Assembly (NCBI GenBank): GCA_904419075.1
Contig: CAJFQM010000009.1
Span: forward strand, 62,001 to 126,000
DNA: 64,000 nucleotides
DNA from: an uncultured Clostridia bacterium
GTDB lineage: Bacteria > Bacillota > Clostridia > Christensenellales > Borkfalkiaceae
Reading direction: 5' to 3'
Shown one piece after another: positions 1-41,626 of this stretch. The notes under the pieces were generated by a model. It ran no database searches. It saw only the letters and a list, made by a program, of their open reading frames with translations, and was not told the DNA's origin. The translations under genes were made by a program, and so were the position numbers. Within the stretch, counting starts at the first letter, position 1. Every line of letters starts with the position of its first letter.

Positions 1-1916
1 GCGAATTTCTCAACACCAACGGCGTGAAACAGACCGCCGACGCGGAGATTTCGGACAAAGTCACGCATTGGTTCGATAAAAAACAGGTGGATTTCAAGGA
101 AAAGACGAAGGAAGTTCTTTCCGACCTCAACGTCTGCGCGAAAAAGGGGCTTTCGGAGACTTTCGATTCCACGATCGGCGCGCGGTCGGTGTATATGCCT
201 TGGGGCGGCAAGAACCAGCTTACGCCCGCAATCGCCATGGCGGCGAAAATCTGCGGCGGCGAAACGGACGTCTGCACGGTCTCCGCTTACGGCTATTCCC
301 CGTATCTCATGGAAACCAGCCCCTTTGTCGGCGCGATTTATTCCATCGTCGCTTCCGTGTCCAAAGTAGTGGCGGCGGGCGCGGATTATCGGAATATCCG
401 CCTGACGTTGCAGGAATTTTTCCGGCGCATGATCCCCGACGCGAAAGTATGGGGCGTCCCGACGTCGGCGCTTCTCGGCGCGGTGTATGCGCAGATAGGT
501 CTGGGCTTGGGCGCCATCGGCGGCAAGGACAGCATGAGCGGCACCTTCGAGCATATCCACGTCCCTCCCACGCTCATTTCCTTTGCGCTCGCGCCTGCGA
601 AAGCGAGCAAGCTCATCGATAACGTATTGAAGGGCGGAGAGAAGCTGTGGCGGCTTCCCGTTCCGAAGGACGGACAGTTCGTCCCCGACTTTGAAAAATT
701 GAAGTCGGTCTATGCGGAAACGTATAAGAATATCGTAAACGGGAATATTACTTTTGCGACGGTCGTCGAGAACGGCGGCGCGGGAGCGGCGGTCATCAAG
801 AGCGCTTTGGGCAACGGCGTGGGCGTAAACTTTGCGCAGGGCGCCTCGGATTTGTATCGGGAATCTTACGGCGATCTGATCGTCGCCGTAAAGGACGAAA
901 AACTGCTTTCAAAGGAAATCGAAAAGGAATATATCGGCGAAGCGACGGGGAACGCGTTCGTTTCGGACGGAGAGAGCGTTTCCCTGTCCGACGCGATAAA
1001 CGCATACCTGACCCCGCTCGAAAGCGTCTTTGCGACGACGGCGCCCGCGGAGGGAAAGGCGGAAAACTGCGATTTTGCCGCGTCGAAGAAATATGTGAAC
1101 ATTTCGACGAAATGCGCGCGGCCGCGCGTGTTCATTCCCGTGTTCCCCGGCACGAACTGCGAGCTCGACACGGCTCGGAAATTCCGCCTTGCGGGGGCGG
1201 AGACGGAGACGGTCGTCGTAAAGAACCGTTCCGCTTCGGACATCGAGGAGAGCGTCAAGGCGATCGCGGGCGCGATTGCCCGCGCGAACATCATTGCGTT
1301 CCCCGGCGGTTTTTCGGGCGGCGACGAACCGGACGGCAGCGGAAAATTCATTGCCACGACGTTCAGAAATCCGTATATCGCGGAGGAGATTGAAAAGCTC
1401 CTTCAAACCCGCGACGGATTGATTTTGGGAATCTGCAACGGTTTTCAGGCGCTCATCAAGCTGGGGCTCGTGCCTTACGGGAAAGTGCTTCCCATGACGG
1501 AAAAATCCCCGACGCTGACGTTCAATAACATTTCCCGTCACGTCTCCACAGTGGTGGATATCCGCGTGGCTTCGGATTTGTCCCCTTGGCTTTCCGCCTG
1601 TAAGGTGGGCGAAGTGTATAAAGTCCCCGTCTCTCACGGGGAAGGAAAAATCGTCGCGCCTTCGGAAGCGCTCGAAGAAATGCGGAAAAACGGCCAGATC
1701 GCCACGCAGTACGCGGATTTGAGCGGAAGCCCTACCATGCAGTCGCCCTATAATCCCAACGGCTCGATGTGGGCGATCGAAGGAATCACCTCTCCCGACG
1801 GCAGGGTGTTCGGGAAAATGGGGCATTCGGAACGCACGGGCGAAAACCTGTATAAGAATATCGAAGGGAACTTCAACATGAAGATTTTCGAAAGCGGCGT
1901 GAAGTATTTCAGATAA
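1..1916 (+). CDS. purL: Phosphoribosylformylglycinamidine synthase, C-terminal half (5' end outside window)
   Basis: This is the C-terminal ~637 residues of a large single-chain FGAM synthase, which makes FGAM from FGAR, glutamine and ATP in purine synthesis. The reading frame is open from base 3, so the gene starts upstream of the window; the internal GTG at 24 is not a start. The first part is the second AIRS-like synthetase half (GGKDSMSG near base 523). The last ~260 residues are a class I glutamine amidotransferase domain: the FPGTNCE start near 1147, the nucleophile Cys in GICNGFQ at 1434-1436, and the catalytic His/Glu in SHGEGK at about 1634. The fused amidotransferase marks the large type, not the split PurL/PurQ/PurS form. 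Confidence 0.95.
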   Translation, partial: EFLNTNGVKQTADAEISDKVTHWFDKKQVDFKEKTKEVLSDLNVCAKKGLSETFDSTIGARSVYMPWGGKNQLTPAIAMAAKICGGETDVCTVSAYGYSPYLMETSPFVGAIYSIVASVSKVVAAGADYRNIRLTLQEFFRRMIPDAKVWGVPTSALLGAVYAQIGLGLGAIGGKDSMSGTFEHIHVPPTLISFALAPAKASKLIDNVLKGGEKLWRLPVPKDGQFVPDFEKLKSVYAETYKNIVNGNITFATVVENGGAGAAVIKSALGNGVGVNFAQGASDLYRESYGDLIVAVKDEKLLSKEIEKEYIGEATGNAFVSDGESVSLSDAINAYLTPLESVFATTAPAEGKAENCDFAASKKYVNISTKCARPRVFIPVFPGTNCELDTARKFRLAGAETETVVVKNRSASDIEESVKAIAGAIARANIIAFPGGFSGGDEPDGSGKFIATTFRNPYIAEEIEKLLQTRDGLILGICNGFQALIKLGLVPYGKVLPMTEKSPTLTFNNISRHVSTVVDIRVASDLSPWLSACKVGEVYKVPVSHGEGKIVAPSEALEEMRKNGQIATQYADLSGSPTMQSPYNPNGSMWAIEGITSPDGRVFGKMGHSERTGENLYKNIEGNFNMKIFESGVKYFR

Positions 1917-1990
1917 TCGGTTGAAAAAATAAGAACCAAATCAGAGAAAGATAAGAACCGAAACGATATGATAAGCTCCCGTCGATTTTT

Positions 1991-2024
1991 GCGGCGGAGA
2001 TACGTAAAAAGCGATCTCCGCCGC
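1991..2024. other. Perfect 11-bp inverted repeat between purL and the PHP phosphatase gene
   Basis: GCGGCGGAGAT (1991-2001) pairs perfectly with ATCTCCGCCGC (2014-2024) around a 12-nt loop. No U-tract follows on either strand, so it is not a standard intrinsic terminator. It may be a processed 3' end of purL or a leader structure. Confidence 0.5.
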
Positions 2025-2098
2025 AGTCGGGAGATACATACGAGAGAAGGAAGAAAGTAAAAAGGTCGTTCTCCGAAAGGAGAAAACAGGAAATAAAA

Positions 2099-2854
2099 AT
2101 GACAGATTTGCATACACATATATTGCCCGGCATCGACGACGGAGCAATAGACGAAGGGGTATCGTCGGAACAAATGAAGAGCCTTCTGGAACAGGGAGTG
2201 GATAAAGTGGTGTTCACGTCCCACTATTACGGACGGAAGCGCAGTCCGAAACAATTTTTGGAGGCTCGGGCAGACGCATTTCGTCGGATCAAGGATCTGA
2301 TTCCCGAGGGAATGGAGACGTATTTGGGCGCGGAAGTGCATTTTGCGGCGGAGATGGCGGCCTCGGACGAATCCATTTGTTCGATGGCGATCGGGGACAC
2401 GCGGTATATTTTGGCGGAACTTCCCTTTACTACCGCATGGAATAAAGGGCTTTGGCGGCGTTTGGAGGACTTTATTTCCTCAACGGATTATATTCCCGTC
2501 ATCGCGCACGTAGAGCGATACGACGAAGCGCGGAAAAAGCCCGCTCTGTTGTCCGAGCTCTTGGACATGGGGTGCCTGTTGCAGGTAAATACGCAGGCAT
2601 TTCTCAAAAAAGAGGACAGCGCGATGGCGTTTGCGATGCTCGAACACGGATTTGTCCATTGTCTCGGGACGGACACGCATAACATGCAGGAGAGGGCGCC
2701 CAAGTATGCGGCGGCGAAGGAAGCTATCGAAGAAGCGGGATTTTACGATCGCTTCGAGAGGATACAGGAAAATATGCTTGCGCTTCTCGAAGATAAGCCG
2801 ATAACGATAGAGAAGACGAAGCCCGTCAAGAAATTCTTCGGACTGTACTATTGA
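2099..2854 (+). CDS. CpsB/YwqE-type PHP-fold tyrosine phosphatase
   Basis: This 251-residue protein opens with the metal-binding PHP motif DLHTHILPGIDDG (residues 3-15). Further metal ligands follow in TSHYYG, HVERY and GTDTHN. Length and motif order fit the Mn-dependent CpsB/YwqE family, which dephosphorylates bacterial tyrosine kinases and sugar-transfer enzymes in capsule or exopolysaccharide control. No cognate BY-kinase is adjacent; the polysaccharide locus lies ~45 kb away, so a link to it is only inference. ATG 2099 has AGGA-like sequence 7 nt upstream. A histidinol-phosphatase role is less likely because no his genes are nearby. Confidence 0.82.
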   Translation: MTDLHTHILPGIDDGAIDEGVSSEQMKSLLEQGVDKVVFTSHYYGRKRSPKQFLEARADAFRRIKDLIPEGMETYLGAEVHFAAEMAASDESICSMAIGDTRYILAELPFTTAWNKGLWRRLEDFISSTDYIPVIAHVERYDEARKKPALLSELLDMGCLLQVNTQAFLKKEDSAMAFAMLEHGFVHCLGTDTHNMQERAPKYAAAKEAIEEAGFYDRFERIQENMLALLEDKPITIEKTKPVKKFFGLYY

Positions 2855-2903
2855 GTATTTGACATCGGGTTCTGTTATTGAGAACGGAGCCGAAGGAGTG
2901 AAG

Positions 2904-3407
2904 ATGAAGACGGACAGTAAAAAATGGATACTCCGCATAGCACTCACTCTTTCGACGGCCGCCTTTGTCTGCTGGATATTTTCAAATTCCTTGAAAACGG
3001 CGGCGGAATCGACCGTGCAGAGCTCTTTTGTCAAAGAGCTCGTGGAGAATTTTTTCAATGCTTTGGTGCCGGGGCGGGATATAGAGATCAGCGAACACGT
3101 CATTCGTAAGCTGGCGCATTTCTGCGAATATGCGCTGATGGGTTTTCTGTTGTTTTTTACATATCTTTCCTATACCCGAAAAAAACTGTGGGTTTTTATC
3201 CCGTCGCTTGTCGGGATCGTCATTCCCTTTTGCGATGAGGGGCTGCAATTTTTTTCGGACGGTCGGGCGCCGTCGTTCGGCGATGTGGGAATCGATATCT
3301 CGGGAGCAGCGTTCGGTTTTCTGTGCGCATGGGCGGTATATTTCGTCGTGTTGAGCATTCTCCGCGCCGGGCGCAGAAAACATTCAAAGGATAAGGACTC
3401 TTTCTGA
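2904..3407 (+). CDS. VanZ-like membrane protein
   Basis: This 167-residue integral membrane protein shows the VanZ signature: RKLAHFCEYALMG in the middle and later DEGLQFFSDGR followed by the conserved Asp-rich stretch GDVGIDISG. Four hydrophobic segments are visible. VanZ relatives include the teicoplanin-resistance protein, but most chromosomal copies have no known role. ATG 2904 is chosen because GAAGGAG ends 5 nt upstream; an in-frame TTG at 2859 lacks a binding site. There is a 49-bp gap after the upstream phosphatase, so they could be co-transcribed. Confidence 0.85.
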   Translation: MKTDSKKWILRIALTLSTAAFVCWIFSNSLKTAAESTVQSSFVKELVENFFNALVPGRDIEISEHVIRKLAHFCEYALMGFLLFFTYLSYTRKKLWVFIPSLVGIVIPFCDEGLQFFSDGRAPSFGDVGIDISGAAFGFLCAWAVYFVVLSILRAGRRKHSKDKDSF

Positions 3408-3456
3408 GGCTTTTTCGGATACATAAAAAGACTGCGATAAACGCATACTGAACGAT

Positions 3457-3873
3457 ATGAAAAAGCGAATTATCTTAAAGAGTGCGGCATTCGCCTCTGC
3501 GGCGGTGCTTTCGCCGCTTTTGTTCAATGTTTCGGCGCTGGGCGGGCTCAAAGACGTGGCGCAGCCCTATTTGGGAACTTATGAATGCGAACAGATTTTT
3601 TTCGGCGGCGAGGAACGTACGGACGATTTCGACTATCTCAGAATAGAGCTCCGACCCAAGGGCGAGCTGAAACTGTTCTGTAAAGAAAAGGACGGGCATA
3701 AATGGGAGAAGGGAGCGAAATACAGCTATGACCCCGAGACGAATAAGCTGACGATTTTTGCCGACCTCGGCGGAATGGAAAAGAAGAAGGAATTTTCCGT
3801 GGAAAAGGGCAGAATAGACGTATCGGTGCGCTACGGCGGAAAAATACTCGTCATGAAATTTGTAAGAAAATAG
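3457..3873 (+). CDS. Small secreted protein of unknown function
   Basis: This 138-residue protein has a clear N-terminal signal sequence (MKKR followed by a hydrophobic core to about residue 27). The mature part is rich in charged beta-strand-like segments (YLGTYECEQIFFGG, LRIELRPKGELKLF), resembling small lipocalin-like or META-like beta barrels. That fold assignment is a guess from pattern only. No lipobox is present. It ends 13 nt before an intrinsic terminator, so it closes the unit that includes VanZ. I do not recognise the family. Confidence 0.65.
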   Translation: MKKRIILKSAAFASAAVLSPLLFNVSALGGLKDVAQPYLGTYECEQIFFGGEERTDDFDYLRIELRPKGELKLFCKEKDGHKWEKGAKYSYDPETNKLTIFADLGGMEKKKEFSVEKGRIDVSVRYGGKILVMKFVRK

Positions 3874-3885
3874 AAGGAAAAAGAG

Positions 3886-3909
3886 GACGGAGAAATCCGT
3901 CTTTTTTTT
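3886..3909 (+). terminator. Intrinsic terminator
   Basis: GACGGA (3886-3891), GAAA tetraloop, TCCGTC (3896-3901), then eight T (3902-3909). It ends the transcript of the small secreted protein. Confidence 0.9.
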
Positions 3910-3943
3910 CGGAAACAAGCACAAACAAACGTTCGATAAATGC

Positions 3944-3972
3944 TTGCCGTTTTGCGGGGAATATGGTATAAT
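3944..3972 (+). promoter_or_regulatory. Sigma-A promoter of the helicase gene
   Basis: TTGCCG (3944-3949), 17-nt spacer, TATAAT (3967-3972). The predicted transcription start is about 3979, only ~3 nt before the ATG at 3982, which implies a leaderless or nearly leaderless mRNA. Confidence 0.8.
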
Positions 3973-3981
3973 GATCTTATT

Positions 3982-5235
3982 ATGGAAAGGGAATTGACGG
4001 CCGATCAGGAGAACGCGAAAAAATTAATAACGGAGTGGTTTTTGAATACGGACAACCGAGTTTTCGTATTGGCGGGATATGCGGGGACGGGAAAGACGTT
4101 TCTCATCAATCATGTGGTGCAGGACGTTTTGCATTTGAAGGCGGGGAGCGAAGCGGTCTTTGTCACGCCGACGGGGAAAGCGGCGACGGTGCTCATCCGA
4201 AACGGAACGGTGGCGGGGACGGTGCATAGCCTGATTTATACGCGGGACGAAGACGATTTCGACGTAGACGAAAACGGAGAAGTGGTGGAAAGGGAAACGC
4301 TGTCGTTTACGAAAAAGGAAAAGATAGACGAAAAAATTCGCCTGATCATCGTGGACGAAGCGTCCATGATCGGAGAGGACGTCTTGCGGGATTTGTTGAG
4401 CTTTGACGTCAAATGCCTGTTTTCGGGGGACAATGCGCAGCTTCCGCCCGTCAACGGCACCTGCGGGTTGTTGGAACATCCGGACTATATGTTGACGGAG
4501 ATCGTGCGTCAGGCGTCGGACAATCCGATCATACAGGTGGCGACGCTGGCGCGGGAGGGGAAGTCGATTCCCTACGGAAATTACGGCGATAAAGTGTGCG
4601 TCGTGGGTAAGAATTTTCTCTCTCCCGCGGAGCGGAAGCGGATTTTTCTGAAAGCGGATCAAATTATCTGCGGCAGGAATAAAACGCGCGTGGCCCTGAA
4701 TCGGGAAATCCGCGGATATAAGGGAATCGACGAGAGCGCGCTTTTGCCCGTAGAGGGGGAAAAGCTCATCTGTACGCTCAACGATTGGGAGAAGCCGTTG
4801 GATAAGGACGGGAATTTCCATCTCGTCAACGGAATTATCGGTACGGGCAGCAATATACGGGAGAGCATGGATTTTTTGGCTTCCATGGATTTCAAGGCGG
4901 ACTTTGCGGACGAGAGCGTGTGGGTGCCTTTCGACACGGCCGTTTTCACGGAGGGGCGATACGCGCACGCCTACGGGGACAGGGCGGTGAAGCTCATTGA
5001 CGGGACGGTGGTGCACGAGAGCAATTTCGCGCTGTTGCATCAACTGAAATCGGTTTCGGAGGAACCCATTTGTCGGTTTGAATTTGCCTATGCCGTCACC
5101 TGCCATAAAGCGCAGGGTTCGGAATTTGATTTCGTAGTGGTGTTCGACGAATCTTGGGCGTTCGGCGGGGAGCGCAACCGCTGGCTGTATACGGCGATCA
5201 CGCGGGCGCGGGAGAAGTTGTTGATTATCAGATAA
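3982..5235 (+). CDS. RecD/UvrD-like superfamily 1 ATP-dependent helicase
   Basis: This 417-residue protein has Walker A GYAGTGKT near residue 32, Walker B DEAS in LIIVDEASMIG, and the C-terminal UvrD/RecD-type motifs CHKAQGSEFD and LYTAITRAR. This is the compact AAA_30/UvrD_C_2 arrangement found in small RecD2-like DNA helicases. The longer frame from 3940 begins before the promoter, so the start is taken as ATG 3982. There is no Shine-Dalgarno sequence, consistent with leaderless translation. It stands alone after a terminator; its in vivo DNA or RNA substrate cannot be told from sequence. Confidence 0.85.
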   Translation: MERELTADQENAKKLITEWFLNTDNRVFVLAGYAGTGKTFLINHVVQDVLHLKAGSEAVFVTPTGKAATVLIRNGTVAGTVHSLIYTRDEDDFDVDENGEVVERETLSFTKKEKIDEKIRLIIVDEASMIGEDVLRDLLSFDVKCLFSGDNAQLPPVNGTCGLLEHPDYMLTEIVRQASDNPIIQVATLAREGKSIPYGNYGDKVCVVGKNFLSPAERKRIFLKADQIICGRNKTRVALNREIRGYKGIDESALLPVEGEKLICTLNDWEKPLDKDGNFHLVNGIIGTGSNIRESMDFLASMDFKADFADESVWVPFDTAVFTEGRYAHAYGDRAVKLIDGTVVHESNFALLHQLKSVSEEPICRFEFAYAVTCHKAQGSEFDFVVVFDESWAFGGERNRWLYTAITRAREKLLIIR

Positions 5236-5260
5236 AACAGAAAATTTGGGAGGGACGGAG

Positions 5261-5848
5261 ATGACGGAAAAAGAGAAATTGGCTTTGGGAGTATTGTACG
5301 ACCCGTATCATTGCGAAGAGTTTTTCAAGGAGCGGGAAATTTGTAAAACGCTCTGTCAGAAATATAATCAGCTTCCGTACGGCGATTATGAAGGCCGAAA
5401 GGAAATTCTTCGCAGGATCATCGGAAAGTTTGCGGGGGATTTTATCATAGAGCCGCCCTTTATCTGCGATTACGGCTATAATATTTCTGTGGGTAAGAAT
5501 TTTTATGCCAATCATAATCTCGTGATTCTCGACGCTACGAAAGTGGAAATCGGAGACAACGTATTCATTGCCCCCGATTGCGGAATTTATGCGGCGGGAC
5601 ACCCTTTGGACGTCGAAGACAGGAACGCGGGGCTGGAATACGCCTTTCCCGTAAAAATCGGCAATAACGTTTGGATCGGCGGCCACGTCTGCATTATGCC
5701 CGGCGTCACGATCGGGGATAATACGGTAATCGCGGGCGGAAGCGTGGTCGTGAAGGATATTCCTTCGGGCGTCCTCGCCGGCGGAAATCCCTGCCGCGTC
5801 ATTCGCAAAATCACGGCCGAGGATAAAAATAAATACCGCCGCCTCTGA
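5261..5848 (+). CDS. Sugar O-acetyltransferase (Maa/LacA/NodL family)
   Basis: This 195-residue enzyme has an N-terminal Mac domain followed by left-handed beta-helix hexapeptide repeats (VEIGDNVFIAPDCGIYAAGH, KIGNNVWIGGHVCIMPGVTI). The catalytic His is in AAGHPLD. Family members transfer acetyl from acetyl-CoA to maltose, galactosides or other sugars. ATG 5261 is preceded by GGGAGG at 5248-5253; the frame extends upstream without a better site. It lies 25 bp behind the helicase gene and may share its transcript. Confidence 0.88.
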   Translation: MTEKEKLALGVLYDPYHCEEFFKEREICKTLCQKYNQLPYGDYEGRKEILRRIIGKFAGDFIIEPPFICDYGYNISVGKNFYANHNLVILDATKVEIGDNVFIAPDCGIYAAGHPLDVEDRNAGLEYAFPVKIGNNVWIGGHVCIMPGVTIGDNTVIAGGSVVVKDIPSGVLAGGNPCRVIRKITAEDKNKYRRL

Positions 5849-5855
5849 TACGCGC

Positions 5856-5885
5856 TTGACGGCCGCGCCGCGGGTTTGCTATAAT
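5856..5885 (+). promoter_or_regulatory. Sigma-A promoter for the tcdA operon
   Basis: TTGACG (5856-5861), 18-nt spacer, TATAAT (5880-5885). An ~80-nt leader precedes the ATG at 5971. Confidence 0.78.
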
Positions 5886-5970
5886 GTAAGAAAAGATAAC
5901 GAAAAAACAAAATACCCGTTTGCGGCGCTGAAAGTTCTTTCCCCGCGGACGAAGTCGAGGGAGGCGCGTT

Positions 5971-6711
5971 ATGAATTTATTTTCCCGTACGGAATTGCTG
6001 ATCGGGAGATCGGGAATGGAAAAATTGAAACGCGCGCGCGTCGCCGTGTTCGGAATCGGCGGCGTGGGCGGCTACGCAGTGGAGGCATTGGTCAGGAGCG
6101 GAGTGGGTAAGTTGGAGCTCGTCGATAACGACAAGGTTTCCCCGACCAACGTCAATCGCCAAATCATCGCCCTTTCGGATACGTTGGGGCGGTATAAGAC
6201 GGAAGCCGCCGCCGAAAGAGCCCGCGCCATCAATCCCGAATGCGAAGTGACCTGCCGGAACTGTTTTTTTACGTCGGAGACGGCGGGAACGTTCGATTTT
6301 TCCGATTACGATTATGTCATCGACGCCATCGACACGCTCGCGGGGAAAATTGCGATTGTAAAGGCCTGTCGGGAGGCGGGAACGCCCGTCGTGAGCTGTA
6401 TGGGCGCGGGGAATAAGCTGGATCCGACGGCGTTTGAAGTGACGGACATCTATAAGACGAGCGTTTGTCCCCTCGCGCGTGCCATGCGCAAGCTGTGCCG
6501 CGAAAACGGAATCGAAAAGCTCAAAGTGGTATATTCTAAGGAACTTCCCGTGTCGGCGGCGGATTCGGAAAGGGCTGCGAGGGAAGAGGGCGCGTATAAG
6601 CCTCGGGTTCCGGGCAGTATCGCGTTTGTGCCGTCCGTGACGGGGCTGATCGCCGCGGGCGAGGCGATAAAAGAAATATCGGGCGTGTACGGAAACGGGA
6701 TAGGCTCGTAA
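5971..6711 (+). CDS. tcdA: tRNA threonylcarbamoyladenosine dehydratase
   Basis: This 246-residue ThiF/E1-like protein has the nucleotide-binding motif GIGGVGGYAVEAL (near residue 27) and the substrate motif DNDKVSPTNVNRQ. The length and the start FSRTELLIG are typical of TcdA/CsdL, which cyclises t6A37 of tRNA to ct6A using ATP. GGAGG ends 6 nt before ATG 5971. It heads a probable operon with a TtcA-like tRNA thiolase 16 bp downstream and YlmH, which supports a tRNA/translation role. A sulfur-carrier E1 role (ThiF/MoeB) is less likely because the zinc-binding cysteines are missing. Confidence 0.88.
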   Translation: MNLFSRTELLIGRSGMEKLKRARVAVFGIGGVGGYAVEALVRSGVGKLELVDNDKVSPTNVNRQIIALSDTLGRYKTEAAAERARAINPECEVTCRNCFFTSETAGTFDFSDYDYVIDAIDTLAGKIAIVKACREAGTPVVSCMGAGNKLDPTAFEVTDIYKTSVCPLARAMRKLCRENGIEKLKVVYSKELPVSAADSERAAREEGAYKPRVPGSIAFVPSVTGLIAAGEAIKEISGVYGNGIGS

Positions 6712-35308: not shown

Positions 35309-36661
35309 ATGGCTTCGCAGCACAAGACTTTGGGAAAAACCTATCTTCGTTATCTGTTTGCGGGACTGGGGAGTGCCGTAATCGTTTCCATCTATTCCAT
35401 AGTGGACGCGATCATGGTAGGGAAATACGAGGGGGCGAACGGTACGGCCGCCCTGTCGGTAGTCATGCCGATCTGGACGATTATTTTAAGTCTGGGCTTG
35501 TTGTTCGGCGTGGGAGGCGGTTCTCTCATGTCCAAGGCCCGCGGCGAGGGCGATGAAAAGCGCGGGCGAGAAATCTTTACCGTGGCGTTTGTCTGTGCGG
35601 TGGTCGTCGCTTTGCTCATCTGGGGCGTGCTTCTGGTCTTTGAAAATTCTCTCCTGCGGTTGTTCGGAGCGGACGACACGCTTTTGCCTTTGGCGAAAAA
35701 GTATCTTACATGGATGAAGTTTTCCATGCCGCTCTTTACGATGGGACAATTTCTGTCCTGCTTTATCCGCAACGATAACGCGCCGACGAAAGCCATGGCC
35801 GCGGTCATTACGGGCGGCGTGTTCAATATCGTCGGAGATTATTTTTTCGTATTCGTGCGGGATATGGGCGCGGAGGGCGCGGGGCTGGCTACGGCGCTCG
35901 GACAAGTTCTCGCCGTCGGGATTCTCGTTTCGCATTTTTTCTCTCGGCAGAACGGCTTGAAATTTGTGCGTCCCGACGCATTTTTCCGTAAAGCGGCCGC
36001 CGTTTTTATCGCGGGATTTTCCGTATTCGTCGTGGATTTGGCCCTGGGCGTTCTTACGATGCTGTTCAATAATCAGATCATGAAATATCTCGGCGCCGAC
36101 GCTTTGGCCGTTTACGGGGTCATCATCAACGTCTCCGTATTGGTGCAGAGCCTTTCCTACGGCGTCGGACAGGCGGCTCAGCCTATCGTGTCCCAGGCAT
36201 ATGGGGCCGGAGAAAAGAAAAATATCCTTCGCATAGAACGATATGGAATTTTTTCCGCCTTGATTCTCGGCGTCATCGCGTTTGCGGTGGCGGAAATCCT
36301 GCCGCTTTCCATCGTGCGGGGATTTATGAAAACGAACGCCGCAATCGAGGAGATAGCTCCGAATATATTCAGAATTTATGCGCTGTCTTTTCTCCTTTTG
36401 CCCGCGAATATTTTCTTTACGTATTATTATCAGGCGATCATGCGTCCGACGGGAGCTTTGACGATTTCTCTGGTTCGCGGAATTTTTCTGAGCGGGTTGT
36501 TAACCTTTCTTCTGCCCGTATTTTTGGGAGGTGCCGCGCTCTGGTGGGTGATGCCCGTCACGGAAATATTTACTTTCGGGATTGGACTTATCTTCGGACG
36601 AAAATATCGCTTTTCCTCGGAGGAGACAAAGGATGAAAATTTAGCGAAAAACAATGATTAA
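35309..36661 (+). CDS. MATE family efflux transporter (MepA-like)
   Basis: This 450-residue protein has twelve hydrophobic segments and two internally related MATE halves (SIVDAIMVGKYEGANGTAALSV near residue 25; YGVGQAAQPIVSQAYGAGEKK near residue 290). It exports cations, drugs or metabolites by H+ or Na+ antiport. ATG 35309 is preceded by GAGG immediately after the leader terminator. The riboswitch context suggests guanidinium or a related compound is the inducer and possibly the substrate; this is inference. Confidence 0.9.
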   Translation: MASQHKTLGKTYLRYLFAGLGSAVIVSIYSIVDAIMVGKYEGANGTAALSVVMPIWTIILSLGLLFGVGGGSLMSKARGEGDEKRGREIFTVAFVCAVVVALLIWGVLLVFENSLLRLFGADDTLLPLAKKYLTWMKFSMPLFTMGQFLSCFIRNDNAPTKAMAAVITGGVFNIVGDYFFVFVRDMGAEGAGLATALGQVLAVGILVSHFFSRQNGLKFVRPDAFFRKAAAVFIAGFSVFVVDLALGVLTMLFNNQIMKYLGADALAVYGVIINVSVLVQSLSYGVGQAAQPIVSQAYGAGEKKNILRIERYGIFSALILGVIAFAVAEILPLSIVRGFMKTNAAIEEIAPNIFRIYALSFLLLPANIFFTYYYQAIMRPTGALTISLVRGIFLSGLLTFLLPVFLGGAALWWVMPVTEIFTFGIGLIFGRKYRFSSEETKDENLAKNND

Positions 36662-36695
36662 TAATTCTTGAATTTTGCGGATAAAAATAAAAAAG

Positions 36696-36720
36696 CGTCG
36701 CTTTGGGCGGCGTTTTTTTT
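36696..36720 (+). terminator. Intrinsic terminator of the MATE gene
   Basis: CGTCGC (36696-36701), TTTGG loop, GCGGCG (36707-36712), eight T. Confidence 0.85.
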
Positions 36721-37027
36721 ATTGCCTGAAAGGGGCTGAAAAGAAGCGTGAAAGGAGATCGGAGCAAAGATTTCAGACAGATTTCATGAGAGAAAATATG
36801 CAATTTAAATGAGGGACATGGAAAATTTTGTTATAATTGTTATAGATTTCCAAAATATGGAATAAATGGAATGGAAATTATTTGACATGAAGGAATAATA
36901 TGGTATAATAAAGATGAATGTGAAATAATATTGAAAATAGAAATAAAGCATAGAGATCGGAATTATACAAAAATACTGAGAAACTTAAACCAACGATATA
37001 CCGATATTAAGGGATTACATAAGAAAG
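36721..37027. other. A+T-rich promoter region of the sigma-factor island
   Basis: No gene is visible in this 307-bp stretch. It marks an abrupt change to A/T-rich sequence that continues through 39.7 kb. A second TATAAT word lies at 36832-36837 without a good -35. Confidence 0.6.
36882..36909 (+). promoter_or_regulatory. Sigma-A promoter of the sigma-factor operon
   Basis: TTGACA (36882-36887), 16-nt spacer, TATAAT (36904-36909). The leader to ATG 37028 is ~110 nt. Confidence 0.8.
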
Positions 37028-37573
37028 ATGGAAAGAGAGCTAAACGAAATTTTAGGAGATTTGTTGATTCAATTAGCACAGAAAAATCTTGACGCCTTGG
37101 ACGAGATTCATCGTTTAATAGGAAAAACTTTGTATACAATCGGAAACAAATACTTTTATCAGAAAGCCGATATTGAAGATACGGTACACGATTTATATTA
37201 TGTGATTTCCAAAAAGGCGCATAAATATAAACCCGGAAGTAACGCTTGCGCGTGGCTTACGACGATTTTGAAAAATTTGGCAAAGAACAGACTGAAAAAA
37301 GAAAAACGGATTTGTTCTTTGACAGAACTTAACGCCATGAGAAGTCGGGTTTGGATGAATGAGGAAGACCGAAATTATCTGGATCAACATCTGTTGATTA
37401 ACGAAATTTTTAAGCAACTGACCCCTTATGAAAAGGAGTTGGTTGTCTATCATTTTTGGTTTCGGTTTTCTTACAACGAAATTGCAAAGATTTACAACAA
37501 ACCGAAAAGTACGATTGCGAGTCAAATCAGCCGTTTGGAAGAGCGGTTGAGAAAATTTTATAAAAAAGAATAA
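37028..37573 (+). CDS. ECF-like RNA polymerase sigma factor
   Basis: This 181-residue protein has a sigma region 2 core (YQKADIEDTVHDLYYVISKK, then ACAWLTTILKNLAKNRLKKE) and a region 4 helix-turn-helix (FSYNEIAKIYNKPKSTIASQ). These are the two domains of ECF-type factors, with no region 1 or 3. Length is normal. No strong ribosome binding site is seen. It leads a four-gene island whose third gene encodes an anti-sigma-like membrane protein. Codon choice is visibly A/T-biased compared with flanking genes, suggesting recent transfer. Confidence 0.87.
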   Translation: MERELNEILGDLLIQLAQKNLDALDEIHRLIGKTLYTIGNKYFYQKADIEDTVHDLYYVISKKAHKYKPGSNACAWLTTILKNLAKNRLKKEKRICSLTELNAMRSRVWMNEEDRNYLDQHLLINEIFKQLTPYEKELVVYHFWFRFSYNEIAKIYNKPKSTIASQISRLEERLRKFYKKE

Positions 37574-37643
37574 AATTTTCTCGTACGAAAGCCTTGTCTG
37601 AATTGTTATATATTATGCTAACACACAAAGGAGATTGTATTTT

Positions 37644-38537
37644 ATGAAAAAAGTTAACAGAGTATCCAAAGTAGCAATCGCGGCGCTTTGCGCTGCCTTC
37701 GCCGTTCTGAATGTCGGTCCGTTGGTCGGACAAGCTGCAAAAGCAGACGAGCTTGAGAATACGGCAAATGAAACTTTTTATTGCGCTGACGGCGATGATG
37801 ATTTTATATATGGGGGACAGGGGGAAATAGCTGATTCGAGCTACGAAATTGAATATGATTATTATGAAATTGTAGAAAATATAAAGCATTATTCGGCGCC
37901 TTCCTTTGGAAACTTGGACGATAGCATGACAAATACGTGTGCACCTGCCGCAGGAACAAACGTTGTGGTTTTTTATGACAGGTGGTATGAAAATTTGGTT
38001 CCGGATTATACGCCAGGGATACAGCTTGCTCTGGGATATTACTATTACATGGATATGGCAAAACCTGAGACTACGAACGTATTAGAAACTTTGTATAAGT
38101 TGATGGATACGAATGTCGGCAGTGGTGGGACATCGGAAAGCCAATTTTTGAACGGCTTATCGGAATATGTCGATAATGCGGGATATGATTTATCTTACAC
38201 GTCTTTTTACAGTGGTGCAAAAACTGTAGATTTGAACGCCTTGAAAGAGGCCATTAACCAAAATAAAGTCGGCGTGGTTTTTTGCAGCAGATACAATTTT
38301 GTATATGGAATTAGGCACGATGAAAATAAAACAATAATAGCAAAAGAAGATGCTAATATTGGACATATGATGATGGTATACGGTTATCAGACGATTGCTT
38401 ATTATAAAAATGATATAAATTTCCATACGGATACTTTTTTGTATGTCAGCAGCGGATATGGAGATGGGGCACAAGGTTATATGGAGCTTAACAGTTATCT
38501 GAACATTGAAGATGCTCTGATTATGGCGATATCATAA
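37644..38537 (+). CDS. Secreted C39-like cysteine peptidase
   Basis: This 297-residue protein has a signal peptide (residues 1-~36, cleaved after a QAAKA-type site) and an acidic Tyr-rich pro-like stretch (40-85). A papain-fold domain follows with nucleophile Cys99 in TNTCAPAAGTN, His241 in NIGHMMMVYGYQ, and a likely third residue in the following strand (SGYGDGAQG or SYLNIEDA). This matches Peptidase_C39_2-like secreted proteins. It is exported, not membrane-anchored. AAAGGAG ends 10 nt before ATG 37644. It sits between a sigma factor and its probable anti-sigma partner. Confidence 0.75.
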   Translation: MKKVNRVSKVAIAALCAAFAVLNVGPLVGQAAKADELENTANETFYCADGDDDFIYGGQGEIADSSYEIEYDYYEIVENIKHYSAPSFGNLDDSMTNTCAPAAGTNVVVFYDRWYENLVPDYTPGIQLALGYYYYMDMAKPETTNVLETLYKLMDTNVGSGGTSESQFLNGLSEYVDNAGYDLSYTSFYSGAKTVDLNALKEAINQNKVGVVFCSRYNFVYGIRHDENKTIIAKEDANIGHMMMVYGYQTIAYYKNDINFHTDTFLYVSSGYGDGAQGYMELNSYLNIEDALIMAIS

Positions 38538-38557
38538 ATACAAATAAAGGAGTAACT

Positions 38558-39712
38558 ATGAAACAGGAGAAAGACAAATGGGAAGAATTCAAAGAACTTC
38601 CGGATGCATACGAAATAAACGATGATTTAGTCCCGAAAGTGAAATACGAGATTTTTAGAGAAAAACATGCAAAACGGCGGATTCATTGGCAGGCTATTGT
38701 TGCGAGTATTACGATATGTGCTATTGGAGTAGGGGTATTCATGCCTATTTATCTTTCTAACCATATAAAAGAAGAAGGCGATGAAGGAAAGTATTATAGT
38801 GAAAATAAATTAATAAAACATCCAATAGAAAATATAGAAGAATATTTGACTGAAAATGATTTAGATGTTTTATATTATACCGAAGAAACTGCAAAATCGA
38901 TAAGTATGAGCATACAAGACTCTAATGAATTAGCTTTGATTTGTCAAGAAATGGATGTTATTGATGAAAATTTAGTGGATAATATACAATTACAAATACA
39001 ATTAATGCTCGATGCAAAATTTGGCATGTTTACTATATTTGAAAACCTTACTAATTCATGCTCCATTTCTGAAATATTAATAGAATATTCAGTTGAACAG
39101 AATGTAGAAGGTAATCAAATTTTAGCAAAATTTACTTATGAGAGTATTCCATATTATTTGAAAATTCAAACCGATGACGCAACAGGCAAATTAGAAAAAT
39201 ATATCAATATGTTGTTTGAGGAGCAGGAAGAAACTTATCTCGATGACGGAGTAATCGTCAATAGCGTAGTTGAAGATCCTCAAGCTTTTATCGACGGCAA
39301 CAATCTTGATATTCTCTATTATTCCGACGATATGATCGGTCCTATGGGAATGGGAAATACTATGAGCGGAAAATTAGAAGATACAGGAGAATTAACGTTT
39401 TTTAGCCAACGGTTGATGTTTATCACAGAAGAGATGACCGTGGACGAGCTGTCTTTACAAATTCTTCTTTTACCGGATAAGAAATTCAGTAAACTGAAAA
39501 TGTATGAAAATCTTCCAGATTCGATGACGATTTCCGGAATTCAAGTCGAATATGGATATACCGATAAAGGGCAAAGAAAAGTTGCGCTGATAAAGTTTAC
39601 ATATAACGGACTTCCATACTTTCTGGATATTCAGGCGGATGATCTGGAAGGAAAAGTGGAATACTATGTCGGCCTGTTACTTTCGGGAGCTGAAAATTCT
39701 CTCGTTGCATAA
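38558..39712 (+). CDS. Single-pass anti-sigma-like protein with duplicated ectodomain
   Basis: This 384-residue protein has a ~45-residue cytosolic, charged N-terminus, one membrane helix (residues 46-67) and an outside region made of two homologous domains (about 90-222 and 239-375). Matching landmarks are NDLDVLYYTEE/NNLDILYYSDD, FTIFENLTNSCSIS/LKMYENLPDSMTIS and KFTYESIPYYLKIQ/KFTYNGLPYFLDIQ. Topology and position after a sigma factor fit an anti-sigma sensor, but no known anti-sigma domain (ASD or zinc motif) is evident. AAAGGAG precedes ATG 38558. The ectodomain family is not one I recognise. Confidence 0.68.
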   Translation: MKQEKDKWEEFKELPDAYEINDDLVPKVKYEIFREKHAKRRIHWQAIVASITICAIGVGVFMPIYLSNHIKEEGDEGKYYSENKLIKHPIENIEEYLTENDLDVLYYTEETAKSISMSIQDSNELALICQEMDVIDENLVDNIQLQIQLMLDAKFGMFTIFENLTNSCSISEILIEYSVEQNVEGNQILAKFTYESIPYYLKIQTDDATGKLEKYINMLFEEQEETYLDDGVIVNSVVEDPQAFIDGNNLDILYYSDDMIGPMGMGNTMSGKLEDTGELTFFSQRLMFITEEMTVDELSLQILLLPDKKFSKLKMYENLPDSMTISGIQVEYGYTDKGQRKVALIKFTYNGLPYFLDIQADDLEGKVEYYVGLLLSGAENSLVA

Positions 39713-39774
39713 AAATGTTTTCGCGTGTCGGGCGGACAACGTTTTACCACTTTACGACAAAAATAAATAATTTG

Positions 39775-39819
39775 AAGGAGGCCGAGGAAATTAAAAAAAC
39801 AATCCTCGGAAAAAAAATG
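39775..39819 (+). promoter_or_regulatory. Shine-Dalgarno held near the start codon by a hairpin
   Basis: AAGGAGG (39775-39781) is 35 nt from ATG 39817, normally too far. The intervening CCGAGGA (39782-39788) and TCCTCGG (39803-39809) form a perfect stem. When folded out, this leaves seven A residues between site and start. This favours 39817 as the start of the BtrH-like protein. Confidence 0.5.
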
Positions 39820-40773
39820 ATGCAAAAGAAAGTATTGAAGAACATTACGCACTACAATGATTGTTGGTTCAGAAACTGTTTTTATCAGCAACTCGTCGCC
39901 GCTTACGGCGCTTTCGGGATTCCCGCGGATTACGTCGTCTGCAATTATACGATCGATCTCGATTTCAACGAGGATACGCAGGTACTCGATATCCACGAGC
40001 ATGAAATTCTGAGTGACAGCGAATTTAACGCTTTGACGGGCGTCTGCCAAAAAAGAGTGCGCTTTCAAGACGTCGTTAAACAATTATGTACCGCGATTCG
40101 TGCAGGAAATCCCGTGATTCTGGGTGCGGACAGTTTCTACCTCCCTTCGAAGATTCAATACTATAATCAGAAACATGCTCCTCATTATTTACTGATTTAT
40201 GGCTTCGACCTCAAACGGAAGACGTTTACCGTCGGAGAAAACGACGGAATCGCGATTTTCCATTTTACCGAAAAAGAAATTCCGTTTGAAGTAATCGAGC
40301 AAACTTACCATTCCTTTGAAGAACGTTTCGCTTCTCCCGATTCTGCCGTTCAGTTGGAAATCGCAAAGAAATGTCCGCTCTATCTTCGGGCCGATGCCAT
40401 GAATAAGCTCAAAAAGGATTTCTGCGAAAGAAATTACATACAATACGCCTCTTTTTATCGCATGCTTTTGGAAAAAAGCTGGACCGTGGAAGAATTATCG
40501 TCTTGGTCGGAATTCGCGGTCAAATATACCAACTTTTTCCGAATTCTCATGAAACAGTGCAGCTATATGTTCGGAGAACCTAAAAAACTGAATGTCCTTG
40601 CCGATATTTGGCACAACGCTCTTTCTGCTTTGGAAATCTTTAAAGAAGCAATTAACCTCGGACAGCCCGAACTGATGAACTCCGAAAGAAGTGAAAAAAT
40701 TACCCAAGATATGGAAGAAAAATTGAAAATGTTAAATCGGCTCAGAGCAATGAGCATGCGAATGGTCGTTTGA
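39817..40773 (+). CDS. BtrH N-terminal-like papain-fold protein
   Basis: This 318-residue protein has an N-terminal C39/BtrH-like domain with Cys16 in HYNDCWFRNC. It then has DSFYLPSKIQYYNQKH, which resembles the BtrH pattern, APHYLLIYGFD with His120/His123, and VGENDG. The C-terminal ~170 residues are helical. BtrH transfers an acyl group during butirosin synthesis; relatives occur in peptide and polyketide clusters. There is no signal peptide, so it is cytosolic. An alternative ATG at 39715, 3 nt after the upstream stop, would add 34 residues without a binding site. It ends at a bidirectional terminator. Confidence 0.72.
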   Translation: MMQKKVLKNITHYNDCWFRNCFYQQLVAAYGAFGIPADYVVCNYTIDLDFNEDTQVLDIHEHEILSDSEFNALTGVCQKRVRFQDVVKQLCTAIRAGNPVILGADSFYLPSKIQYYNQKHAPHYLLIYGFDLKRKTFTVGENDGIAIFHFTEKEIPFEVIEQTYHSFEERFASPDSAVQLEIAKKCPLYLRADAMNKLKKDFCERNYIQYASFYRMLLEKSWTVEELSSWSEFAVKYTNFFRILMKQCSYMFGEPKKLNVLADIWHNALSALEIFKEAINLGQPELMNSERSEKITQDMEEKLKMLNRLRAMSMRMVV

Positions 40774-40800
40774 ATCTTTATTCCCCGAATCTTTTGCATC

Positions 40801-40833
40801 AAAAAATCCCCCGTCATCGACGGGGGATTTTTT
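40801..40833. terminator. Bidirectional terminator between convergent genes
   Basis: AAAAAATCCCCCGTC (40801-40815), ATC loop, GACGGGGGATTTTTT (40819-40833): a perfect stem usable from both sides. Confidence 0.92.
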
Positions 40834-41626
40834 AGCTCTTTTTGAAAACTTCCGTGGGAGGACGATCGTAAAATTTGGAAAAGCTACGATAAAAAGTCGT
40901 CATGGAATCGAAACCGTTTTCAAAAACCAATTCCGAAAGATTGGGATTATCCTTCTTTTTGGCCGAAGAAACCAGATTGCGGATTCGTACCATATTAATA
41001 TAGTTATTCAGGTTTTCTCCGATATACGTATTGAACAGGCGCGAAAAATAATATTTATTATATCCGAACACGGATGAAATCGAATCGAGCGAAAGGGGTT
41101 CGGTATAATGCTCGTCGATATAATTCAACGCTTCCATAATCGTGCTGATTTTCGGCGTGGCGGATGCCGGTATCGTTTGATAATGCTCCAAGAGGCTTCC
41201 GATAATGATATCGATATATCCCTTTTTGACGAGTTCCGACGAGTTTTTCGAAAGAAGATTCAACGCATCGAAGTGGGGACGGAGACTTTTATTAAACTCT
41301 TTGTCGAATAAGTGCGCGGGCAGAGTCTCCGTCTGAAATATCCCTTGAAAATCGTCCGAATAGCGCTGACCGATAATCAATACATAGTCCGAGTAATCGG
41401 GCGCCGCCTTGAGTTCGTGCACTCCGCATTTATGCACAAAAATCATTTCGTCTTTCTTCGCACGGAATTTCTCTTCGTTTACCGTGCAGTCGATCGCTCC
41501 GTCAATCACATACAGCATTTCGATGCAACGATGAAAATGAGCGTGCGTATCGTAATGCTCGCTCGTGAAAAATTTTATCGTATCTGTTTTATCGTGAAAG
41601 GCTTCGTAAATGATGTTTTGTTTCAT
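40832..41626 (-). CDS. AraC family transcriptional regulator
   Basis: This 264-residue protein has an N-terminal cupin-like sensor (residues ~15-100; EHYDTHAHFHRCIEMLYVID, FVHKCGVHELKA) and a C-terminal pair of AraC helix-turn-helix motifs (PLSLDSISSVFGYNKYYFSR, LSELVFENGFDSMTTFYRSF). It is divergent from the sugar-dehydrogenase operon and probably controls it. The start is ATG 41626; a much longer frame upstream runs antisense through the neighbouring gene. No strong ribosome binding site is seen. Confidence 0.9.
   Translation of the reverse strand: MKQNIIYEAFHDKTDTIKFFTSEHYDTHAHFHRCIEMLYVIDGAIDCTVNEEKFRAKKDEMIFVHKCGVHELKAAPDYSDYVLIIGQRYSDDFQGIFQTETLPAHLFDKEFNKSLRPHFDALNLLSKNSSELVKKGYIDIIIGSLLEHYQTIPASATPKISTIMEALNYIDEHYTEPLSLDSISSVFGYNKYYFSRLFNTYIGENLNNYINMVRIRNLVSSAKKKDNPNLSELVFENGFDSMTTFYRSFSKFYDRPPTEVFKKS

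Follow-up and report, generated by a model that had tools for sequence, protein, structure and literature searches.

A recurrent sigma factor, secreted papain-like protein and membrane protein unit in gut Clostridia suggests a variant of extracytoplasmic function signalling

What is a gene for a secreted papain-like protein doing between the gene for an extracytoplasmic function (ECF) sigma factor and the gene for a single-pass membrane protein? The question is raised by a stretch of 64,000 nucleotides (the window) from an uncultured Clostridia bacterium of the order Christensenellales, family Borkfalkiaceae (assembly GCA_904419075.1, contig CAJFQM010000009.1, positions 62,001 to 126,000), whose genome comprises 2.33 Mb in 38 contigs. 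Four A+T-rich genes occupy positions 37028-40773 of the + strand, flanked by two hairpin terminators and with one sigma-A promoter in front. An earlier note, made from the sequence alone, had joined the four into one island encoding a sigma factor, an exported peptidase, an anti-sigma-like sensor and a BtrH-like protein. We find that the first three genes are a recurrent, conserved unit, arranged in the window as follows.

37028 to 37573, + strand: predicted ECF-type sigma factor (gene 1), 181 amino acids, regions 2 and 4 only.
37644 to 38537, + strand: predicted secreted papain-fold, C39-like protein (gene 2), 297 amino acids from its ATG; the reading frame is open from 37635.
37938 to 37940 and 38364 to 38366, + strand: Cys99 and His241 of gene 2, conserved in relatives.
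38558 to 39712, + strand: predicted single-pass, anti-sigma-like membrane protein (gene 3), 384 amino acids; cytosolic residues 1-41, transmembrane segment 42-60, ectodomain copy 1 at about 86-225 and copy 2 at about 226-384.

Searching with the gene 2 protein as a single sequence found it in 12 of 101 genomes, a count that takes in the genome of the window. The window, the 11 other loci from this search and 60 profile matches make up a set of 72 loci with 73 gene 2 relatives, with the weaker profile matches and some others left out. Of the 73 relatives, 63 come immediately after a sigma gene; under stricter filters, 61 of the 73 are immediately preceded by a sigma gene and immediately followed, on the same strand, by a gene for a protein of 190-400 amino acids with an N-terminal transmembrane segment. 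In a census of neighbouring open reading frames (ORFs) of at least 100 amino acids, the three families of the trio occur in 69, 66 and 57 of the 72 loci, and the next-commonest neighbours, small helix-turn-helix (HTH) proteins, in 8 and 5. A second set of 44 loci, overlapping the first, has a sigma gene directly upstream of 38 of 44 gene 2 ORFs, one of them split; one locus of this set (L128) has no complete ORF and another (L148) has two, and the set was counted by hand. Its record titles are those of Clostridia metagenome-assembled genomes (MAGs), some of them from the hindgut of roe deer, sheep and goat or from 'Lapin' samples, and many name no source. Recurrence of the neighbourhood had been set beforehand as one test of the four-gene island: the sigma, secreted and membrane genes recur together, and the fourth gene has no homologue at the other loci read.

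Ten relatives have no sigma gene directly upstream. Two (L118 and L120, which belong to one genus) have the order sigma - membrane - secreted, and in L120, where the trio spans 1782-5266, the sigma and membrane genes overlap, as is usual for sigma/anti-sigma pairs. In six others (L023, L025, the first copy in L080, L092, L101 and L111) the sigma ORF lies elsewhere in the locus or is masked by the choice of ORF; L025 is the same locus as L140, with a sigma ORF that ends about 80 bases before gene 2. Six genomes yielded two or three fetched copies each, and these copies keep their own membrane gene in 13 of 13 cases and a sigma gene directly upstream in 12 of 13, which suggests insulated pairs.

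Some loci show further peculiarities. L080 carries the secreted and membrane genes in two tandem copies (2926-6363, about 4 kb), with a sigma ORF directly before the second only. Decayed copies occur in L161 (L029:2970-3227), where the sigma gene is broken into two short ORFs of 88 and 85 amino acids, and in L167 (L023:7557-9199), where the membrane gene is reduced to an 87-amino-acid ORF and a 111-amino-acid ORF upstream of gene 2 was not recognised as a sigma factor. In L118 and L120 the trio is followed by a 137-amino-acid protein, which in L120 has a weak likeness to sigma region 4 (21.1 bits, cut-off 25.7). An RHS-like protein is not a regular neighbour, being found by motif pattern in L118 and L120 only among the 72 loci.

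By its domains, gene 1 is an ECF-type sigma factor, as the earlier note had proposed: it has regions 2 and 4 without region 3, and its 181 amino acids fall within the range of the class (about 160-200). Pfam Sigma70_r2 (E 1.9e-7, residues 33-94) and r4_2 (4.3e-7, residues 124-173) both score above their cut-offs, as does the NCBIfam sigma70-ECF model TIGR02937 (66.4 bits against a cut-off of 42.9, E 2.2e-18). Searches of PHROGs gave generic sigma matches for gene 1, and none under 0.1 for genes 2-4. Two further sigma relatives were scanned against Pfam; in one, both region 2 and region 4 are matched, in the second just region 4.

Gene 2 has no Pfam match at E values up to 1 and matches no NCBIfam family over its cut-off. 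Its papain-like nature is indicated by weak matches of some relatives together with a structure model. Eight of 36 relatives match Peptidase_C39_2 (PF13529) at E up to 0.01 (best 2.7e-5), possibly with scores above the curated cut-off, and two long-form relatives score 23.5 and 18.9 bits, below the cut-off of 24. An AlphaFold model built from 36 sequences (predicted local distance difference test score, pLDDT, 83; predicted template modelling score 0.80) is papain-like: the conserved Cys opens a helix, and the His lies in a strand. Both residues, Cys99 and His241, had been picked out earlier from the window alone, and they are invariant in all 73 relatives at a mean pairwise identity of about 29%; 72 of the 73 have a hydrophobic stretch at the N-terminus. 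The protein is probably papain-like and catalytic, as judged from alignment and model. Foldseek returned a single match under 0.001, annotated 'P210 CD lyase' (3.1e-4, template modelling (TM) scores 0.39/0.55), followed by IdeC, Mac-1 and IdeS (1.6e-3 to 7.1e-3). These three IgG-cleaving enzymes are not taken to indicate function, as TM-scores of about 0.3 say little beyond the papain fold. Nineteen of the 73 ORFs are long forms of at least 370 amino acids, and in the seven of these that were scanned no N-terminal pro-domain was matched. Searches of PDB sequences with the single proteins and with profiles gave nothing meaningful.

Gene 3 matches no Pfam or NCBIfam family over cut-off, and a single-sequence search found no relative in 100 other genomes, so that alone it would have seemed an orphan; synteny from gene 2 resolved its relatives. 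A profile of the proteins encoded downstream of gene 2 at the other loci, with the window left out, matches gene 3 twice (88.5 and 45.5 bits), which places it in this family, the second match being an extra copy of the ectodomain. The two halves of the ectodomain are 35% identical (E 5e-30), bearing out the duplication reported earlier. Elsewhere the ectodomain is single: the other same-strand neighbours with a transmembrane segment are 214-268 amino acids long and correspond in alignments to a single copy. The duplication therefore seems to be local. An N-terminal transmembrane stretch is present in 67 of 70 same-strand downstream neighbours of gene 2 relatives, and in 66 of these 67 the net charge is more positive before it, which by charge bias puts the N-terminus inside; a median of 52 residues precedes the segment in the 67 proteins, some of whose starts are uncertain.

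We modelled a typical member of the family from another locus (L145) rather than the window protein. The model (pLDDT 89.5) has helices at residues 3-13 and 15-29, a transmembrane segment at 48-73 and a compact ectodomain with pLDDT mostly above 95. In class II anti-sigma factors, helix 1 binds sigma-4 and helix 2 binds sigma-2. A short cytosolic two-helix part before the transmembrane segment, as in that class, is what the L145 model predicts, and in this respect the family's cytosolic part resembles class II anti-sigma factors. A class I domain was also considered for gene 3 and set aside: such domains are described in PMC7406223 as having four helices, about 101 amino acids on average and in some cases an Hx3Cx2C zinc site, and gene 3 has about 41 cytosolic residues, none of them Cys. 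Foldseek related the L145 model to DcrB (probability 0.99), TM1622 (1vr8, 0.95) and PsbP (0.5-0.7), with nothing under E 0.001 and TM-scores of about 0.2-0.4.

Two observations concern the window's own genome. A 112-amino-acid frame (L179, G000:C10:85211-85489) shows weak similarity to the profile of the membrane proteins (E 6.8e-5). Another ECF sigma gene of this genome (L035:6619-8276, G000:C1) overlaps the start of a gene for a 376-amino-acid protein that has, by eye, a single hydrophobic stretch close to the N-terminus, an arrangement resembling an ordinary sigma/anti-sigma pair; the whole-protein profile of the gene 3 family weakly matches this partner (1.6e-4), probably through the transmembrane segment, and kinship is not supported.

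The earlier picture of four same-strand genes with A/T-biased codons, two terminators and one promoter was confirmed by folding, by a promoter with 12 of 12 consensus matches and by GC content at third codon positions (GC3). The remaining features of the locus are these.

36689 to 36719, + strand: intrinsic terminator 3' of a MATE-type transporter gene, the left border; it folds at -16 kcal/mol (z -4.6) and has a T run.
36882 to 36909, + strand: sigma-A promoter, TTGACA-16-TATAAT, 12/12 consensus matches, TG before the second hexamer.
39820 to 40773, + strand: predicted BtrH_N-like papain-fold protein (gene 4), 317 amino acids from 39820; the reading frame is open from 39715.
40801 to 40833, + strand: intrinsic terminator, the right border; a 15-pair stem and T run, -23.1 kcal/mol (z -7.7), found by pattern scan.

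The left terminator was detected by folding and was not listed in the pattern scan of the region. The promoter is the sole 12/12 site among 23 promoter-like sites at 36600-40900, where shuffled sequences average 13.9 sites. Measured against 48 other window ORFs of at least 150 amino acids (GC3 0.608 ± 0.053), genes 1, 2 and 3 deviate strongly (0.398, 0.377 and 0.294; z -3.9, -4.3 and -5.9) and gene 4 more mildly (0.491, z -2.2). Across the loci, GC is lower in the unit than in its flanks in 58 of 71 cases, the window being the most extreme. Upstream of 19 of 63 operons, counting that of the window, there is a sigma-A-like site that departs from consensus at no more than one position, versus 5 of 315 mononucleotide-shuffled sequences, and dyad counts and clade alignments upstream of the operons gave sigma-A-like or A-rich patterns only. 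An HTH gene stands at most 250 nucleotides upstream of the sigma gene in 17 of the 63, by a profile seeded with five of these HTH genes (L022:9443-9904, L026:1507-1806, L028:9449-9748 and 14 other loci); the L022 protein is XRE-type (Pfam HTH_3). This optional gene is possibly a fourth regulatory component.

What, then, might the trio do? We give about an even chance to the reading that genes 1-3 form a self-contained ECF cell-surface signalling operon in which the secreted papain-fold protein acts on the anti-sigma ectodomain. The gene 3 protein would hold the sigma factor, and the secreted protein would be a dedicated extracytoplasmic partner whose action on the ectodomain would most likely be a Cys/His-dependent cleavage (site 1); a general membrane protease of the M50 family (site 2) and cytosolic proteases would then free the sigma factor. 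The genome has M50-family matches (best 4.5e-57). Expression of the operon from a sigma-A promoter suggests a switch that stands ready and is set by a signal. Sigma binding, catalysis, ectodomain cleavage, signal and target genes are all inferred here. More tentatively, and with greater doubt, the trio may be a cysteine-peptidase-gated ECF system: the secreted protein would serve as a site-1 protease dedicated to the anti-sigma factor encoded in the same operon, and what the bacterium senses would be peptidase activity outside the cell, or the inhibition of that activity. On this view many insulated copies would have diverged in a single order of gut Clostridia. When the divergence of the three proteins is compared across loci, all pairs correlate, and the secreted protein and the ectodomain are the most strongly correlated pair (rho 0.51; 0.41 given sigma).

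Several results weigh against the signalling operon. The co-divergence lends it weak support, because it is expected for any co-inherited operon, and all seven partial correlations exceed all 500 permutations, those for non-partner combinations included. Two of the loci (L098 and L102) show no sigma gene anywhere in the stretch. Among 32 membrane proteins scanned against Pfam at E up to 0.01 no anti-sigma domain was found; the matches were DUF4367 and DUF6946, in one protein each (6e-4 and 1.4e-3). The profile of the cytosolic segment misses the partner of the genome's other ECF sigma factor (E 0.17). Dyad counts and clade alignments revealed no ECF-type autoregulatory promoter and no shared ECF-type motif upstream of the operons. 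Activity of gene 2 is not proven, since the third catalytic residue is not fixed: an Asn or Asp lies 13 to 18 residues after the His in 65 of 73 relatives, with no single offset in more than 41 of the 73, a count made without a chance control. Nor need the biochemical role of gene 2 be signalling, because relatives outside the order have no recognised sigma gene nearby (best E 0.18 in roughly 3 kb around each). There are four of these, all weak (E 1.5e-9 to 8.8e-4), from samples of the class (291 genomes) and the phylum (398 genomes); they are larger than gene 2 (348-396 amino acids as called), and three have an N-terminal hydrophobic stretch, which is absent in L172 as called.

In a different assignment of roles, the secreted protein is the output, an exported peptidase with a digestive, defensive or host-directed function governed by the sigma/anti-sigma pair. 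We regard this as rather unlikely. It accounts for larger papain-like relatives of which none of four has a sigma match nearby, and the secreted IgG-cleaving enzymes among the Foldseek neighbours point the same way, though at low TM-scores. It sits poorly with promoters of sigma-A type that share no visible ECF-type motif, and with the placement of gene 2, which in 61 of 73 cases is flanked by the genes for the sigma factor and the membrane protein and is retained in the unit where the order has changed. In the roughly 3 kb around each outside relative, the best match to the membrane family is a 100-amino-acid ORF in L173 (E 0.018). We infer that it was in this order that a sigma/anti-sigma operon recruited a secreted peptidase-like protein. 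Three of the outside relatives are followed by a small gene that is lipoprotein-like by eye (L169:723-1136, L170:911-1312 and L172:990-1439; 133-149 amino acids), perhaps an inhibitor or partner.

A variable third residue also suits a secreted protein that is a co-sensor without proteolytic activity, binding a ligand or inhibitor and signalling to the ectodomain by contact, in the manner of CnrX with CnrY or PbpP with RsiP, while another protease, such as signal peptidase, cuts site 1. There is a precedent in the cutting of RsiP by the signal peptidase SipP (PMC8844934), and contact without cleavage would account just as well for the co-divergence with the ectodomain. We nevertheless consider it improbable, as a Cys and a His kept in 73 of 73 sequences that share on average about 29% identity are hard to explain without catalysis.

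The distribution of gene 4 speaks against the island as originally drawn. In the proposed check of each protein against profile hidden Markov models, gene 1 alone passes its cut-off, genes 2 and 3 match no family above cut-off, and gene 4 falls narrowly short (BtrH_N, PF14399, 28.7 bits against 29.7). Its place as a fourth member is not supported. When the ORFs of the 72 loci and the 44 overlapping ones were searched with a profile built from gene 4 and two relatives, the window copy alone was found, the BtrH-like family is absent from the census of recurrent neighbours, and a scan of genome contigs with the protein confirmed no match. Because of this lack of homologues at the other loci read and its milder codon bias, we treat gene 4 as probably outside the conserved system, either an accidental neighbour or a recent local addition. 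A single biosynthetic or signalling island, in which the BtrH-like protein makes an acylated or peptide product sensed by the others, is accordingly very improbable: the genes share a strand and a 3' terminator, and the gap between genes 3 and 4 has no terminator and at best a 9/12 promoter, but the eight window proteins scanned with Pfam include no acyl carrier protein or ligase. A paralogue of gene 4 that matches BtrH_N with 36.6 bits lies elsewhere in the genome (L033:1725-9962, G000:C13), clustered with genes for an acyl carrier protein, an AMP-ligase, a 189-amino-acid unknown and a 1729-amino-acid RHS-repeat protein, and no sigma factor was recognised within the 16 kb read around it. Another genome (L034) has a similar order of BtrH, a 188-amino-acid unknown and a giant protein.

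Within the order, the gene 2 profile found relatives in 76 of 396 sampled genomes and 31 of 142 genera; in five of the 76 no match is as strong as E 1e-20. In a quickly built tree, gene 2 of the window falls, on a long branch and with unsure placement, outside a strongly supported clade of 25 members, to which six of the nine other genes of the window's genus belong. Family labels change 21 times on the tree, against a possible minimum of 8 and a shuffled mean of 43.7, and so are partly scattered yet still clustered. Two MAG contigs that carry different genus names, Ca. Fimimorpha and Ca. Caccovivens (L130 and L131), have identical match figures and ORF coordinates, reflecting either recent transfer or a binning error. 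No match was confirmed in viral contigs, for the membrane protein or the secreted family, or in phages and plasmids. To read the trio as a mobile cassette, selfish or defensive and without any housekeeping role, is scarcely credible: the patchy spread, low GC relative to flanks, scattered labels and some decayed copies would suit it, but it is at odds with these empty searches and with the scarcity of recombinase-like families (identified by eye), which occur in 4 and 2 of the 72 loci.

ECF sigma factors are a main bacterial route from events at the cell surface to gene expression, and their signals and first proteases are often obscure. Here the likely extracytoplasmic partner is encoded in the operon itself, in dozens of genomes, so the input side would be directly testable with three genes. 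For gut Clostridia, most of them uncultured, the trio also opens a way into families of proteins hardly recognised by present libraries. No such operon of sigma factor, secreted peptidase and anti-sigma factor was found in the literature searched, which was mainly open-access, with preprints and the large ECF re-classification outside it; our results suggest an ECF/anti-sigma signalling variant not described there.

Known systems share parts of this design. Like the members of the papain-like cluster (Peptidase_C39_2, PF13529; BtrH_N, PF14399; C66 IdeS), gene 2 has a papain-like model with Cys on a helix and His on a strand; unlike them, it has no Pfam match, its third residue is not fixed and, in 63 of 73 cases, its gene immediately follows one for a sigma factor. 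The likeness of the L145 model to the DcrB, TM1622 and PsbP-like fold is one of fold only. In the Bacillus SigP-RsiP-PbpP system, according to PMC8844934, an ECF sigma factor is paired with a membrane anti-sigma factor cut at site 1 and site 2 and with an extracytoplasmic sensor derived from an enzyme. This system and SigV-RsiV share with the proposed trio the ECF sigma factor and the membrane anti-sigma factor, regulated proteolysis being only a proposal for the trio. The trio differs from them in that its partner is C39-like rather than a penicillin-binding protein or lysozyme, and in that DUF4179, the RsiV-type domain, is absent from the Pfam matches of the 32 membrane proteins at E up to 0.01. 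CnrH-CnrY-CnrX of Cupriavidus metallidurans, compared by features and not by sequence, likewise has three genes, an ECF sigma factor and an extracytoplasmic partner. CnrX is a periplasmic metal sensor that signals to CnrY, whereas the partner in the trio is a secreted papain-fold protein. The class II layout of CnrY, with a short two-helix cytosolic segment before the transmembrane segment (described in PMC7406223), is like that of the L145 model, and unlike CnrY the trio's membrane protein carries a folded ectodomain of its own.

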